From Chloroflexota bacterium (lineage in GTDB: Bacteria; Chloroflexota; UBA6077; SHYK01), in contig DASRDP010000001.1 of NCBI GenBank assembly GCA_035652535.1, positions 1-51,553 on the forward strand: DNA of 51,553 nt, in the 5' to 3' direction. The notes below the pieces were generated by a model. That model was given only the letters and a program-made list of their open reading frames with translations. It was not told the origin of the DNA and ran no database searches. Shown here one piece after another: positions 26,109 through 33,306 of the stretch; within the stretch, counting starts at the first letter, position 1, and each line of letters starts with the position of its first letter. Both the position numbers and the translations under genes were made by a program.

Positions 26109-27104
26109 GTGGCTGAACAGGGGCAGGTGAGACGCCTGCGAGACGCGTTCGAGCGGCACCCGGATCGCCGGTACATCATGTTCGGTGGGAAGGGCGGACT
26201 CGGGAAGACGACCTTCTCCGCTGCGACGGGCTACTGGCTCGCCAAACAGGGCAAGCGAGTCCTGATCTTCTCGGTCGATCCGCAGGCGAGCCTCTCGGAC
26301 ATCTTCCAGCAAGACCTCTTCGGAAAGGGCGCGGTGCCCATCATGCCCAACCTTTGGGCCCAGGAGATCGACGCCGACCGTCGCATCCGCGAGTACCAGG
26401 ACGAGATCAGACAGAAGATCCTCGACATGTACGGCTTCGATTCCGTCCCCGAGGAGATCGAACAGTACATCCAGGCGGCGGCCGCGGAGCCGGCGATGGA
26501 GGAGAGCGCGATCTTCGACGCCGTCGTCGACATCGTGGTCTCCGGCGAGTACGACTACTACATCTACGATCTCGTCCCCCTCGGCCACGCCCTCTACTAT
26601 CTGTCGATGGCGAAGATCTACGACGAGTGGATCAGCAAGATCACCAAGCTTCGGGAGGAGATGCGCGAGTACGAGAAGGTGGCTTCGGTCATGAAGCGGC
26701 AGAAGGTGCTCGAGGAGGACCAGATCCTCGGCGAGCTGCAGTACATCAAAGGTCGCATCAGCACCTCGGCCCAGATCCTTACTGACCGCCAGAAGACGGC
26801 TTTCTTCTTCGTGATCATTCCCGAAGAGATGGCCATCCTGGACACGCGGAAGGCGGCCGAGCTGTTCGCGAAGTTCGACGTGCCCATCGCAGGCTACGTC
26901 GTGAATCGCGTGGTGCCGGAGCATCTCTTGCGTGGGGAAATCCCCGCGTATCTGCGCAACCGCATCGGCATGCAAAAGGGGTATCTCGACGGCATTCGCA
27001 CCGGGTTCGGGTCGCAGGTGCTGGCAGAAGTCCCGGAGATGGAACGCGACGTGACGGGGCTCGCAATGATCGATCGGCTGGCGGGCATGATGTATGGCGA
27101 CTGA
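26109..27104 (+). CDS. Get3/ArsA-type ATPase, first of a tandem pair
   Basis: A 331-residue deviant-Walker ATPase. The P-loop GGKGGLGKTTFS (residues 26-37) carries the signature Lys28. Switch I reads FSVDPQASLSDIF with the catalytic Asp57, and PAMEESAIFDAV matches the conserved segment after the helical region. Switch II is altered, DLVPLGHAL instead of DTAPTGH. No CxxC zinc motif is present. ArsA/Get3 proteins act as dimers that couple ATP turnover to delivery of membrane proteins or metalloids. The start GTG 26109 has no clear ribosome site, and GTG 26127 is an alternative. The 3' end overlaps the second ATPase by 11 nt. No ars genes are nearby. Confidence 0.88.
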   Translation: MAEQGQVRRLRDAFERHPDRRYIMFGGKGGLGKTTFSAATGYWLAKQGKRVLIFSVDPQASLSDIFQQDLFGKGAVPIMPNLWAQEIDADRRIREYQDEIRQKILDMYGFDSVPEEIEQYIQAAAAEPAMEESAIFDAVVDIVVSGEYDYYIYDLVPLGHALYYLSMAKIYDEWISKITKLREEMREYEKVASVMKRQKVLEEDQILGELQYIKGRISTSAQILTDRQKTAFFFVIIPEEMAILDTRKAAELFAKFDVPIAGYVVNRVVPEHLLRGEIPAYLRNRIGMQKGYLDGIRTGFGSQVLAEVPEMERDVTGLAMIDRLAGMMYGD

Positions 27105-28113
27105 CCCTGGGAATGTCCGCGAGGCGACGGCGCCGCTCATCGCGGAGTCGATGGCGGCATTTCTGACGCGCAATCCGGTGAAATACGTGTTCTTCGGTGG
27201 GAAAGGTGGCGTCGGGAAGACGGCGATGGCGGGCGCCCTCGCGCTCTGGCTCGCGGCGAGCGGCAAGCGGACGATGCTCTGCTCCACGAATCCCGTCCAT
27301 TCTCTGTCCAGCCTCCTCGGCCAGGACGTCTTCGGTCGGCCCAGCCTGGTCGAGGGTTCGGAGAACCTCTGGGCGTATGAGATCGACACGAAGGAGACCA
27401 TCGAACGTTCGAAGACGGAGATCAAAGAGAAGATCCAGTGGTTCCTGAAATTCGCGGAGATCTCGACGCGCGCGGATGAGTTCGTGGAGTCCGCCACGAT
27501 GAACCCTGCCTTCGAAGAATCCGCAATGTTCGAAAACATGATCGACCTCATGTTTCGCGACGAATACGATGCCTATGTGTTCGATACGGCCCCGACCGCC
27601 AATGCACGGCGCCTACTGGGAATGTCGAAGGTCTATACGCTGTGGGTCGACAAGATGCTGCGTTCGCGTGAGGAGGCGCGCAGCCTCCGGGAGATGCTCT
27701 CGTTCACCAAGAAGAAGGAGGAGGACCCGCTCCTCGAGTATCTCCTCGGCTTTCGGGACAGGATGGCGCATGCGCGGGCCCTGTTGACCGACCCGGCGAA
27801 GACCGCGTTCTTCTTTGTGACGTTGCCCGAGGCCCTGCCCATCGCCGTCATTACGCGGTTCATCGGATGGTTCGAGGAATTCGGCATTCCAGTCGGCGGC
27901 GTGGTCGTCAACATGCTCATCGACGGCGCGTCCGTATCCGCTGACGCGGCGGAATTCGTGCGGAATCGCGTCGCGATGCAGAATGAGCACATGGAGACGA
28001 TCGCCGAGAAGTTCGGGGACTCTGTTCGGGCAGTCGTTCCGTTGTTTGAGACTGAGGTGCGCGGGATCGCTATGCTCGGCCGACTCTCCCAGTCCCTGAT
28101 GGCTCACGACTAG
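27094..28113 (+). CDS. Get3/ArsA-type ATPase, second of a tandem pair, with Asn at the switch I Asp
   Basis: A 339-residue paralogue of the preceding protein; its ATG lies inside that gene. The P-loop GGKGGVGKTAMA (residues 35-46) keeps the signature Lys37. Switch I reads CSTNPVHSLSS: Asn66 (codon AAT) sits where Get3 has the catalytic Asp57 of STDPAHNLSD. Switch II FDTAPTANARRLL is close to the canonical form, and PAFEESAMFENM matches the partner. The two proteins thus have complementary changes, which suggests an obligate heterodimer with one hydrolytic site impaired. Mycobacterial BagA/BagB (Rv3679/Rv3680) is a known precedent for paired Get3-like ATPases. Confidence 0.88.
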   Translation: MATDPGNVREATAPLIAESMAAFLTRNPVKYVFFGGKGGVGKTAMAGALALWLAASGKRTMLCSTNPVHSLSSLLGQDVFGRPSLVEGSENLWAYEIDTKETIERSKTEIKEKIQWFLKFAEISTRADEFVESATMNPAFEESAMFENMIDLMFRDEYDAYVFDTAPTANARRLLGMSKVYTLWVDKMLRSREEARSLREMLSFTKKKEEDPLLEYLLGFRDRMAHARALLTDPAKTAFFFVTLPEALPIAVITRFIGWFEEFGIPVGGVVVNMLIDGASVSADAAEFVRNRVAMQNEHMETIAEKFGDSVRAVVPLFETEVRGIAMLGRLSQSLMAHD

Positions 28114-28794: not shown

Positions 28795-29967
28795 GTGAAG
28801 GAACCGACGTCTGTCTATCTCGACCACGCCGCGACGACGGCCGTGGACACCCGAGTGCTCGAGGCGATGCTGCCCTACTTCGTTGAGCGATATGGAAACC
28901 CCTCGGGCTCCTACGCCCTCGCTCGCGACTCCCGACGGGCCATCGACCGTGCGCGCGACACGTGCGCGTCGCTTCTGGGCTGTCGAGCCGCGGAAGTCGT
29001 GTTCACGAGCTGCGGCAGCGAGAGCAACAACCTGGCGATTAAGGGGGTCGCCTTCGCCACGCGCGAACGCGGCCGCCACATCATCACGTCGGCCGTGGAG
29101 CACCACGCCGTCCTCCACACGTGTGAATACCTCGAGCGATATTTCGGATACGAAATCACCTACGTCCCCGTCGACGGATACGGGCGCGTGGACCCGGACG
29201 CGGTTGGACGCGCCATTCGGCCGGACACCGTTCTGGTCTCCGTGATGCTAGCCAACAACGAAATCGGGACCATTGAGCCGATAGCCGAGATCGCGGCCGT
29301 GGCGCACCAGTCGAGGGTGCCCGTCCACACGGACGCCGTTCAGGGAGCTGCCAGTCTCGACTTGAACGTCGACCGGCTTGGTGTCGATCTCCTATCCCTC
29401 TCCGCGCACAAGTTCCAGGGACCCAAGGGCGCCGGGCTGCTGTTCATCCGTCGCGGCACACCGATCCTTCCCCAACAGCAGGGGGGAGGGCAGGAGCGGG
29501 GCCTGCGCTCGGGCACCGAGAACACGGCGGGCATCGTGGGGATCGCCACGGCGCTCGAGCTCGCGCAGGAAGGACGCGTCGCGTACGCCAGCCACTGTCA
29601 GGTGCTCCGCGACGCGCTCATCGAGGGTGTTCGGCGCAACGTCGACGACGTCGTGGTCACTGGCCACCCGACGGAAAGGCTTGCAAACAACGCGAGCTTC
29701 GCGTTCCGTGGCGCCGATGCGGAGGCGATCCTCATGGCGCTTGACGCCGAGGGGATCGCGGCATCCGCGGGAAGCGCGTGCACGTCCGGTACCCTTGAAG
29801 TGTCGCACGTCCTAAAGGCGATCGATCTGGACGACGAGCTGGGGGGCGGAAGTCTTCGGCTTACGCTCGGGATGGAGAACACGATGGACGATGTGAACCG
29901 CGTCGTGTCCGTGCTCCCTGGAGTGATCGATCGAGCCCGCGCCGCTCGCCGGATGTCGGTGGGCTGA
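28795..29967 (+). CDS. Cysteine desulfurase (NifS/IscS type)
   Basis: A 390-residue PLP enzyme from GTG 28795. The N-terminal VYLDHAATTAVDTRVLEAM is followed by CGSESNNLAIKG, SAVEHHAV (PLP-stacking His), HTDAVQG and SAHKFQGPKGAG with the Schiff-base Lys. SAGSACTSGTLEVSHV contains the catalytic Cys on the mobile loop. It removes sulfur from cysteine for Fe-S clusters, tRNA thiolation or molybdenum cofactor sulfuration; NifS-like enzymes can also handle selenocysteine. No iscU or mnmA is adjacent. Possible consumers in the window are bioB, the XdhC-assisted enzymes and the selenoprotein candidate 250 bp away. Confidence 0.92.
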   Translation: MKEPTSVYLDHAATTAVDTRVLEAMLPYFVERYGNPSGSYALARDSRRAIDRARDTCASLLGCRAAEVVFTSCGSESNNLAIKGVAFATRERGRHIITSAVEHHAVLHTCEYLERYFGYEITYVPVDGYGRVDPDAVGRAIRPDTVLVSVMLANNEIGTIEPIAEIAAVAHQSRVPVHTDAVQGAASLDLNVDRLGVDLLSLSAHKFQGPKGAGLLFIRRGTPILPQQQGGGQERGLRSGTENTAGIVGIATALELAQEGRVAYASHCQVLRDALIEGVRRNVDDVVVTGHPTERLANNASFAFRGADAEAILMALDAEGIAASAGSACTSGTLEVSHVLKAIDLDDELGGGSLRLTLGMENTMDDVNRVVSVLPGVIDRARAARRMSVG

Positions 29968-30003: not shown

Positions 30004-30150
30004 GCCTGTCTTGCGCGAAGCCGAAGGGCTCGGGGCGAGCGGACGAGGACAGGCGGAGGCGCCTGTCATGCTGCGCGAAGCCGAAGGGATCCGGGCGAGC
30101 GGACGAGGACAAGCGGAGGCGCCTGTCATGCTGCGCGAAGCGAAGCATCT
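30004..30150. repeat. Tandem 60-bp repeat (two copies plus a truncated third)
   Basis: Copies start at 30004, 30061 and 30121. The first two share a core of about 50 nt (for example CTGCGCGAAGCCGAAGGG-like, GCGAGCGGACGAGGACA, GCGGAGGC) with a few changes. The third diverges after 15-20 nt. Minus-strand translation gives PFGFAQ and RLRLSSSARP strings, typical of interspersed repeats seen in some Chloroflexota and other environmental genomes. It fills the gap between two convergent genes (29967 and 30223). No coding function is proposed. Confidence 0.8.
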
Positions 30151-30222
30151 GTGGCTTGCGAGAACCTTCAGGCTGACGGACGGAGGCGGCGCGGAAGCCT
30201 CGAACGGAGCCGGTGGCGCGGG

Positions 30223-30921
30223 CTAGCTTCCCCGGTCGTCGTCCGGATCGATTCCGGCCGCTTTCTGGATGGCGGCGACGAAGCTCTGCTCGGGCACAGC
30301 GCCGACGAACGTAACCTTGTCGTTGATGATCGTCTTGGGAACTCCGGTCACGTTGTATTCGCGAGACAGCTCGGGAAATTCATTCGCCTCGATCACGTCC
30401 GCGGTCACGTGGTCGAACTCGATCGCCATCTGGTGGGCCAAACTGGCCACTCTCGGACAGTGCGGTCAGGTGGGTGTGACAAATACCTGCAGGTGGATCG
30501 GCTCGTCGATGGCCGCCAGGGCGTCGCGTGTCGCCTGGGAAAGTGCGGTCTGGTGCTTCGACACGGCCTGGATGTCCTGAATCAGCGTCGAGAATTCGTA
30601 GCCCGCGGGGGCTCCGAAGTAGCGGACGCGCCCTTCGTCGCCCGAGGCGACCAGTAGCGCTGGCACGCGCGTTATGCCGTACCGTTCGGCGACTTCCCGC
30701 TCCCGCTCGAGATTGTGAATCTCCAGCGTCAGCTTGTCCGACAGGCTGGCGATCTCTTCGATGAGCTGCTGCACATCCTTGCAGGTTTCGCACGACGGAC
30801 GTCCAGGGATAAACAGCGGCGACGGAGGGATGGTGAAAAGGATCAGCCGCACAGGATTGCCGAGGTTCTCCTCGAACATCTTCGCGATGCTCGCTCGATC
30901 TTTGTCGCTGATGAAAGCCAT
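30223..30921 (-). CDS. Two-domain protein disulfide oxidoreductase; probable selenoprotein (TGA at 30466-30468)
   Basis: Read through the single in-frame TGA, the gene encodes 232 residues with two thioredoxin folds, the PDO/glutaredoxin-like layout. The N-terminal fold has SCETC (Cys44, Cys47) and ends RYGITRVPALLV. The C-terminal fold has VFVTPT-U-PHCPR, with the TGA at residue 152 exactly where the first Cys of the CPxC motif belongs, then YNVTGVPKTIIN with the cis-Pro. On the mRNA a hairpin (30433-30450) begins 15 nt after UGA. Its stem of 7 bp has one bulge, and the loop starts with G, as bacterial SECIS elements require. It should reduce or isomerise disulfides in the cytosol. A simple nonsense mutation is the alternative. 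Confidence 0.82.
30433..30450 (-). promoter_or_regulatory. Candidate bacterial SECIS hairpin
   Basis: On the minus strand GTGGCCA pairs with TGGCCCAC (one bulged C) around the loop GTT. The loop lies 22 nt after the UGA. This meets the usual bacterial SECIS rules as I recall them: stem of 4-16 bp, small apical loop with a G in its first two positions, and 16-37 nt between UGA and loop. Confidence 0.55.
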
Positions 30922-30942
30922 CGCTCCTCCGTCCCGGCAATT

Positions 30943-32142
30943 CTAGCAGGATTGAGATTCGGTAGGCCTCGGCCCGATGAAAATTCGGACGTCTCGACTG
31001 CCGAGCCGCCGAGGGCCTGCCGCAGATACGACGACGGTATCTCCCCAGCGGACGAGATGTGGCCCGAGTCGGTCTCGCCATTGCGCCCGGGCAGTTATGG
31101 AAAAGCAGGCGCCCGGCGCCAGCGGGCGGCCGAGCCGCGGGTCGTCGCGGGCGCGAACCGAACCGGGGCCCGGGAAATCATCGCCGATCCCCTGGCCGCG
31201 AATGACCACGCCGGTTCGAATCCCGCCCGCGCTCGCGGCCTCCCCTGCTGCCTGAACCTCACGAATCGTCCGGTCGCTGCGTACCCGGTCGAAGGCGCGA
31301 TACCACGCGTCGGCGCACGCGGTCGCCCCGTCCATCCAGCTCGGTGGGGGCGGCGCGACGGCTGCCATCTGAACGCCTCGGGAGCGGTAGCCAAGGTAGC
31401 GGCCTTCCGCTCGGACCACGAGCGTGCTGTCCTCCCCGGCGGTACGTCCGATCGGGATAGGCGACGACGCGCCGACGTCCGTCCAGCCCCGGAGCGCTAC
31501 CTCGATCGTCGTCGTGAGATCGCCGCCGGCTTCGATGGCCGCCTGTACCGCCCGCGCGGCGATCTCACGATCCGAGGCGCCGCGTGCGAGATGGGCGCAC
31601 GCGGCAATGAGGGCCGCATCGGAGACGGCGGCGGCCCGCTCGAGGGCGTGGATCTCCTCCGGGCTCTTGATGAAGCGCGCCTCCTCCATGAGGCCGGTCG
31701 CGCCAACCCAGCGGGCATGCGAAAAGACCTCGCGGAGCGTCACGAGGGTCTGGTAATTGAATCGGCCATCGGGTTCGCCCACCGTTGGATCGAGCCCGAC
31801 GATGCCGATGATCTTTCGGTCGGCTTCGAGCTCTTCCAGGCGTTCGACGATGCCGGCGATCCATCGTCGGCTCACCACCCGGATGTCCGGCGTCCAGGCG
31901 ATTGCTGCGCTGCCCACGCGACCTCTACTGGTCAGCGCCGTGACCGGGCCATCCGGCGCGACGATCGCCGGGCCAATGTCGAAAGCCATCTGTGTCAGGT
32001 ATCGGCTATCGTCTTCGGTGGGAACGATCAACACGTCGATTCCAGCCTCCGCCATGAGCGTGCGCACCGTCTGCCATCGACGATCGCGCTCGGCGAGCGT
32101 GAATCCCTCGACCTGGTAGTCGCCCAAACCCGCTAGGTCCAT
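30943..32142 (-). CDS. M24-family (creatinase/Xaa-Pro aminopeptidase-like) protein, probably catalytically altered
   Basis: The ATG at 32142 gives a 399-residue protein; the frame extends further upstream without need. The N-terminal creatinase-type domain is clear: FTLAERDRRWQTVRTLM, DVLIVPTEDDSRYLTQM and SHARWVGATGLMEEARFIKS. The pita-bread C-terminal domain starts with PEEIHALERAAAVSDAA. The metal ligands of M24 peptidases are not in place: the Asp-containing strand reads TLVVRAEGRYLGYRSRG, and the GHGIG motif reads RGQGIGDDF, with Gln for His. It is therefore probably not a standard dinuclear peptidase. Its starting codon adjoins the divergent HExxH gene. Confidence 0.7.
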   Translation of the reverse strand: MDLAGLGDYQVEGFTLAERDRRWQTVRTLMAEAGIDVLIVPTEDDSRYLTQMAFDIGPAIVAPDGPVTALTSRGRVGSAAIAWTPDIRVVSRRWIAGIVERLEELEADRKIIGIVGLDPTVGEPDGRFNYQTLVTLREVFSHARWVGATGLMEEARFIKSPEEIHALERAAAVSDAALIAACAHLARGASDREIAARAVQAAIEAGGDLTTTIEVALRGWTDVGASSPIPIGRTAGEDSTLVVRAEGRYLGYRSRGVQMAAVAPPPPSWMDGATACADAWYRAFDRVRSDRTIREVQAAGEAASAGGIRTGVVIRGQGIGDDFPGPGSVRARDDPRLGRPLAPGACFSITARAQWRDRLGPHLVRWGDTVVVSAAGPRRLGSRDVRIFIGPRPTESQSC

Positions 32143-32217
32143 ATGTGGCGCTATTATCCGAGCGCACAGCCGTCGCGCGCTATCGACCCCCATGCAAACG
32201 TTTGGACCCATCCACGG

Positions 32218-33306
32218 ATGCAGCGCTTCGTAATCCTTGGCCTCGTGTGCCTCGCGACCCTTGTCGGGAGTAGCCCGGATCTGACCGGTGTGCGCATCGC
32301 CCAACTGGCGGCGCCGTATCGCTGGGGAGCCGTCGGCTGGGAGGCCGAACATCTCGCCGAGGGCGCGGGAGAGATCGCCAATCAGCTCTTTCATCCCTCC
32401 GACGATCAGTCCGTCGTCGCGGACGTTCGTGCCCTGCTCCAGAGTGCCCGGGCGGGACCGGTGGGCGGCGATCGTCGCGTGTCTTCGCTCGTAGCCGGCG
32501 TCGTCGCTTTCGAGCTGCGCCGCCACGGCGCGCCGTCACTTGGCCGTGTCGTCGTGCCGCCAGTCACCCTCGCCCTGACCCAGCCGCTCCAACTGCTCGT
32601 GGTCTCGCCGCGCGATGAGATTCGCGAAAGCTACTGGGCCCTCCTCGAGGGCGGTACGCCGTCCACCGTCGCGCCCGTCCTCGAGAAGGCCGTCGAAGAC
32701 CTCGGGGTGTCGGCGCTGGTGGTAGACCGCATTGCCATCGCCACCTATCCGACCCTGATTCCGGTCGATACGTCCCCGGCTGCCATCCTCCAGACGGCTG
32801 CGCACGAGTGGACGCACACGGCGCTCTTCTTCACCAGGCTCGGTCAGGCGTATGGCTCCTCGCCAAGCGCTCGGGCCATCAATGAGACGACGGCAGATAT
32901 CGTTGGTGCCGAGATCGGCGATGCCCTTGATCGGAACGCCGGCATCGGGACCAAGACGGAGGAGTCGCAAGCCAGAGATCGCGCCTTCACTGCGCGCATG
33001 CGAGCGATCCGCCAAAGAGTCGATGTCCTCCTCGCGGAGCACGAGGTGGACCGAGCGGAGGCGTATATGGAGGAGCAGCGGCTCCTTCTGGTGAGCCAGG
33101 GGTATCGGATTCGCCGTCTCAACCAGGCGTACTTCGCGTTTTTCGGCAACTACGCGGAGGGGCCGTCCGCAACGACCGAGATCGTCGACTCCGTGCGCGC
33201 CATCCGAGATCGCAGCGGGACCCTCGCGGATTTTTTGGGCGAGGTGGGGCAGGTCACAACCATCGAAGAGCTTCGCGGCCTCGTTGCCCGCAAGGCGGCG
33301 CGATGA
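32218..33306 (+). CDS. Exported or membrane-anchored HExxH protein (putative zinc metallopeptidase)
   Basis: ATG 32218 opens a hydrophobic segment QRFVILGLVCLATLVGSS, a signal peptide or anchor; an in-frame ATG at 32143 would add 25 polar residues and leave no promoter space. The 362-residue protein contains AAHEWTHTALFF (HExxH; zinc ligands and catalytic Glu) and, about 45 residues later, INETTADIVGAEIGD, whose Glu could be the third ligand. The C-terminal half is helical with Arg/Glu-rich coiled segments and the motif LNQAYFAFFGNYA. No named peptidase family is certain. It diverges from the M24-fold gene. Confidence 0.7.
   Translation: MQRFVILGLVCLATLVGSSPDLTGVRIAQLAAPYRWGAVGWEAEHLAEGAGEIANQLFHPSDDQSVVADVRALLQSARAGPVGGDRRVSSLVAGVVAFELRRHGAPSLGRVVVPPVTLALTQPLQLLVVSPRDEIRESYWALLEGGTPSTVAPVLEKAVEDLGVSALVVDRIAIATYPTLIPVDTSPAAILQTAAHEWTHTALFFTRLGQAYGSSPSARAINETTADIVGAEIGDALDRNAGIGTKTEESQARDRAFTARMRAIRQRVDVLLAEHEVDRAEAYMEEQRLLLVSQGYRIRRLNQAYFAFFGNYAEGPSATTEIVDSVRAIRDRSGTLADFLGEVGQVTTIEELRGLVARKAAR

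Follow-up and report, generated by a model that had tools for sequence, protein, structure and literature searches.

Does the TGA codon at positions 30466-30468 of this DNA terminate a gene, or is it translated as selenocysteine (Sec)? The window, i.e. the whole stretch of 51,553 nucleotides that was analysed, contains at 30223-30921 two open segments in one frame, which the first-pass annotation had joined through this codon into the sequence TPT-U-PHCPR. The strand was absent from that annotation. The gene is encoded by the minus strand, with its ATG at 30921-30919 and the end of the frame at 30223, and no similar coding content was found on the plus strand at 30223-30921. A GGAGG ribosome-binding site (30926-30930, minus strand) is located 4 nt 5' of the ATG. 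The frame is a single run of 232 codons and its sole interruption is the TGA (30468-30466). Reading the TGA as U gives a protein of 232 amino acids with U152 in the context VFVTPT-U-PHCPRV.

The complete protein matches the NCBIfam model TIGR02187, PDO_seleno_TRX, scoring 262.6 bits where the cut-off is 185, residues 6-221 corresponding to model positions 2-209. It also aligns end to end with the solved chain of an archaeal protein disulfide oxidoreductase (PDO), 1j08, with E=1.3e-44. Because of this score and the end-to-end alignment with solved archaeal PDOs, the product is identified as a tandem thioredoxin-fold PDO, as the first-pass annotation had proposed in calling it a two-domain disulfide oxidoreductase. 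The alignment with 1j08 points to two units of the thioredoxin fold, and both contain a motif of the CxxC type: C44-E-T-C47 in the N-terminal unit (30781-30792, minus strand; context GRPSC-E-T-C) and U152-P-H-C155 in the C-terminal one. Sec152 is the first residue of this second motif and coincides with the first Cys of FVTPTCPYCP in 1j08.

One alternative is that the TGA is an ordinary stop, the downstream half being the debris of a pseudogene or a separately started gene. This is how the locus appears to open reading frame callers using table 11, which give only the 151-residue front part (30466-30921). The full-length match to TIGR02187 and the conservation of both halves in homologues agree, however, with the earlier claim that the two sides are intact and do not represent a dead gene. 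When 400 genomes of the phylum were searched for homologues, 118 had a match, and the codon count at column 152 takes the 108 frames that have Cys or TGA in that column. They divide equally into 54 with TGA and 54 with Cys (39 TGC and 15 TGT). Thus the residue that had been claimed as necessary at this site, the first Cys of CPxC, is indeed encoded there in half of the relatives, and the predicted alternation of Cys and TGA at residue 152 is seen. In the 23,840 codons of the homologous frames, 54 in-frame TGA codons are at column 152 and one is elsewhere, in L090, past the natural C-terminus. The position of the TGA is therefore conserved well beyond chance. Random stop codons at this site in homologues had been named as evidence that would speak against selenocysteine, and neither TAA nor TAG turned up at column 152 among the phylum homologues. 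Same-column TGA codons with both halves conserved in these 54 homologues and in further loci from a wider scan, together with a wobble-position covariation that continues past the TGA (both described below), make termination at codon 152 very improbable. Nine TGA-split frames in the window have a coding-like composition; judged by sequence and length, all of them except the PDO resemble neighbouring genes or noise.

In a 106-row tree, even a count restricted to well supported branches gives at least 10 changes of the Sec/Cys character. Within the family nearest to the window gene, L017, L018 and L020 have TGA and L019 has TGC. No SelB above the cut-off was found in the genome of the Cys form L019 (G177, 80% complete). 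SelB is present in 50 of the 53 genomes with a TGA-form PDO, the remaining three being 76-88% complete. Taken alone, the association of SelB with the TGA form falls short of significance (Fisher p=0.067), since most genomes with the Cys form have SelB as well. In four genomes a Sec copy and a Cys copy of PDO occur together: G097 (L042/L060), G201 (L045/L061), G158 (L022/L080) and G036 (L113/L126). Such pairs are useful for asking whether the roles of the two forms differ.

The breadth of the family was established by scanning the DNA pattern TPT-U-P[HY]CP over one genome per species in 84,980 species. The scan gave at least 117 loci, and among the matches listed 115 encode the PDO family with TGA at column 152; since the pattern itself demands TGA, these loci show breadth and not the ratio of TGA to Cys. 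At least 13 named phyla are represented among the Sec-PDO loci. Among the matches listed, most are from Chloroflexota, Acidobacteriota and Bacillota, and further ones are from Rokuibacteriota, Actinomycetota, Gemmatimonadota, Zixiibacteriota, Thermomicrobiota, Armatimonadota, Myxococcota and others. Two planctomycete loci (L198 and L245) have the pattern without a PDO match, which is due to chance or to a different protein, and L143 includes one frame that is a spurious second hit.

These data bear on the possibility that a Cys codon, TGC or TGT, was turned into TGA by a sequencing or assembly error. The genome consists of many contigs (168), half of the homologues have Cys at this site, and binned genomes may mislead on single records. 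Nevertheless, TGA occurs independently in more than 100 assemblies, several of which are complete isolate genomes, including those of Sulfobacillus thermotolerans, Anaeromyxobacter oryzae and Alicyclobacillus mengziensis. Furthermore, an RNA hairpin is present in the TGA forms and not in the Cys forms. We regard an error as having a negligible probability, smaller even than that of a genuine stop.

The host genome (4.45 Mb in 168 contigs, 98.3% complete) was examined by family searches for the genes that selenocysteine insertion requires, as the first-pass annotation had suggested, and all four were found. The tRNA-Sec gene, selC, scores 69.5 bits and has the anticodon TCA. SelB was detected with 338 bits, plus its C-terminal part, SelA with 557.8 bits on the same contig as SelB, and SelD with 379.6 bits. 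An in-frame TGA also stands at the classical Sec site of SelD itself (HCSG-U-ASK) and at that of a formate dehydrogenase, FdhA (SCNRT-U-HAPSVV). These two further selenoprotein genes, Sec-SelD and Sec-formate dehydrogenase, are L048 and L250 on contigs C130 and C129. The full machinery and the Sec-type SelD and FdhA argue for active selenocysteine use in the organism, as had been claimed.

Readthrough as such shows only that UGA is decoded, and the codon could in principle stand for another amino acid, such as Trp or Cys, if it were reassigned or leakily read through. UGA is, however, the normal stop of other genes in the window, e.g. of the cysteine desulfurase gene at 28795-29967. The complete Sec machinery, the Sec-type FdhA and SelD, the alternation of TGA with Cys only and the presence of a SECIS hairpin all speak for selenocysteine, so that decoding as a different residue is about as improbable as an assembly error.

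A bacterial SECIS element is a stem-loop positioned soon after the UGA with a G opening the apical loop. The first-pass annotation had placed a hairpin with a G-initiated loop 15 nt past the TGA. A SECIS-like stem-loop, GUGGCC-AGUUU-GGCCCAC, is located at 30433-30450 (minus strand). Its stem begins at 30450, the 16th nucleotide after the TGA, following a gap of 15 nt, and the loop, A-GUU-U, occupies 30444-30440. Its position agrees with the first-pass annotation, and position and loop fit the description of a bacterial SECIS element. The single-sequence fold of the 62 nt past the TGA is unremarkable (z -0.49), and for this reason folding alone was dropped as evidence and comparison was used instead. 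The Rfam model SECIS_3 (RF01989) gave 13.6 bits, missing its gathering threshold of 63, and only the apical hairpin (model positions 19-34) matches. The case for a SECIS element in the PDO gene thus rests on the comparison of sequences.

Covariation was analysed in 47 different TGA sequences whose hairpin is of the same type as that in the window. All of them have the stem GCC-AGNNU-GGC unchanged, although its GCC-AG half is fixed by choice because it was used to pick the type. The informative pair is formed by nucleotides 18 and 30 after the TGA (30448 and 30436), each of which is the wobble base of its codon (158 and 162, respectively). This pair is G-C in 25 sequences, C-G in 11, G-U in 4, A-U in 4 and U-G in 1, and is unpaired in 2. 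Pairing in 45 of 47 was reached by none of 5000 shuffles. The covariation score is 0.237, compared to 0.099 after shuffling (0/500), and no slid version of the structure does as well as slide 0; the shuffles do not remove relatedness, whereas the slid controls keep it. Most of the third-position changes at 18 and 30 are silent, Ala or Val being retained, and are naturally explained by selection acting on the RNA.

Across 158 TGA sequences the mean hairpin score is 14.98, compared to 9.17 under synonymous recoding. In 52 Cys sequences the corresponding values are 9.01 and 8.45. The hairpin therefore tracks the TGA rather than the protein sequence, and is missing from the Cys forms. A second register exists, in which the stem ends at nt 17 and the loop begins CGUG. 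It covaries at nt 14/27, where 23 of 23 sequences pair compared to 13.7 after shuffling, and at nt 13/27 (34 of 39 compared to 26.3). Loci of this GUG type are L083-L113 and L135-L244, and their loops have 5 or 6 nt.

Taken together, these comparative-genomic observations make it highly probable (about 96%) that the locus is a genuine PDO selenoprotein gene, as the first-pass annotation had proposed, in which UGA codon 152 is decoded by the organism's own SelA, SelB, SelC and SelD under the direction of a SECIS element located within the coding region. Its product would be a probably cytosolic two-domain PDO with Sec152 and Cys155 as the working site. The truncated annotation of 151 residues is thereby corrected, and selenocysteine use in the SHYK01 lineage is supported.

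The two redox motifs are not equally conserved. Both N-terminal cysteines are kept in 47 of the 53 TGA forms that are ungapped in the alignment, and are lost in the others. TGA-form PDOs that have no N-terminal CxxC and keep UxxC include L065, L068, L070, L074, L076, L108 and many of L133-L249. Loss of CxxC with retention of UxxC in several relatives fits a working Sec site, the retention being in part a matter of construction because the pattern scan required the U motif.

In the studied PDO system of Sulfolobus, electrons pass from NADPH to thioredoxin reductase, PDO and peroxiredoxin (PMC7465337). The C-terminal site of PDO is essential for thiol-transferase activity, and isomerase activity needs both sites (PMC7465337). 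We infer the order of steps and the substrates of Sec-PDO by analogy. Sec152 and Cys155 would form the active site of the C-terminal domain, equivalent to CPYC of the archaeal PDOs. Sec152 would attack the substrate disulfide and Cys155 would resolve the intermediate. The resulting selenenylsulfide would be re-reduced by a flavoenzyme of the thioredoxin reductase type with NADPH, possibly via the N-terminal C44/C47 pair or with its aid. Peroxiredoxins and other cytosolic disulfides are the likely substrates, to judge from the studied PDOs.

A thioredoxin reductase gene (TIGR01292, 384 bits) starts 10 nt downstream of the PDO gene in L062/L066, and such a gene is found near PDO in L029, L044, L079, L082 and L084. 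None adjoins the PDO gene in the window. A ResA/TlpA-like thiol oxidoreductase gene follows PDO in one group of related loci. The upstream gene on the same strand of the window (30943-32526, minus strand; start codon uncertain) encodes a creatinase_N/M24 family metallopeptidase, and its stop is 21 nt before the PDO start. Co-transcription of the two genes in the window is possible. A conserved peptidase-PDO operon was considered and rejected, as outside the window the sole trace of the peptidase next to PDO is a weak match in L019. The convergent gene on the other side (28795-29967, plus strand) encodes a NifS/IscS-type cysteine desulfurase and is kept as a neighbour in all four members of the window's family with a match. 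Two adjacent genes for ArsA/Get3-type ATPases are located at 26109-28113 (plus strand; PF02374, 236 and 231 bits). Imperfect direct repeats 3' of the PDO gene, at 30010-30160, gcgaagccgaagg...cgagcggacgagga...gcggaggcgcctgtc..., look like a dispersed intergenic repeat.

We lean towards a more general picture, with moderate confidence. Sec-PDO would be a widespread bacterial cytosolic disulfide reductase, present in at least 13 phyla, whose C-terminal Sec site is indispensable and whose N-terminal CxxC is dispensable. The repeated exchange of Sec and Cys would be coupled to the gain and loss of a SECIS element in at least two registers, one with the stem from nt 16 and the loop AGNNU, and the other with the stem from about nt 12 and the loop CGUGN. 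With close relatives that differ in having Sec or Cys at a single position, at least 10 switches between the two, and a SECIS element that comes or goes with the switch, the family represents a clean natural experiment. It therefore offers a way to test both what catalysis in PDOs gains from Sec and how bacterial SECIS elements evolve.

The first-pass annotation could not name a described protein with Sec at the second motif of a tandem thioredoxin-fold PDO, yet this is an already listed selenoprotein family (TIGR02187, PMC1794560). A survey in 2006 reported two bacterial members, from Carboxydothermus hydrogenoformans and Symbiobacterium thermophilum (PMC1794560), compared to well over a hundred loci from the present scans. 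A stop-codon screen in 2007 listed three members with TGA as 'Glutaredoxin-like', among them CHY_0740 (PMC1914089). Asgard members were described in 2024 (PMC11227280), and the family has been graded a high-confidence prediction (PMC13188914). In view of these listings the gene cannot be called undescribed. It belongs to a catalogued selenoprotein family that is known from genome sequences; the additions made here are its wide distribution, the repeated exchange of Sec and Cys and the visible covariation of the SECIS element. A literature search, with most subscription papers outside its scope, found no biochemical study of a Sec-PDO.

The window protein shares with the previously listed Sec-PDOs the same NCBIfam model, the UxxC motif, one Sec per protein and the existence of Cys homologues. 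The examples listed first are from a different lineage, and the likeness to them is one of model and motif. TIGR02187 itself, an equivalog model for 'protein disulfide oxidoreductase' whose name marks the seleno forms, matches the whole protein without evident difference. The archaeal PDOs of Pyrococcus (1a8l, 1j08) and Sulfolobus likewise consist of two thioredoxin folds with a CxxC in each, and their second motif, FVTPTCPYCP, corresponds to FVTPTUPHCP here. They differ in having Cys where the window protein has Sec, and the studied members are hyperthermophilic. The N-terminal domain of AhpF (1hyu and 1zyn were matched) shares the tandem thioredoxin-like halves. In AhpF, however, this domain is fused to a flavoprotein domain, whereas the reductase is a separate gene where it is seen near PDO in the relatives.
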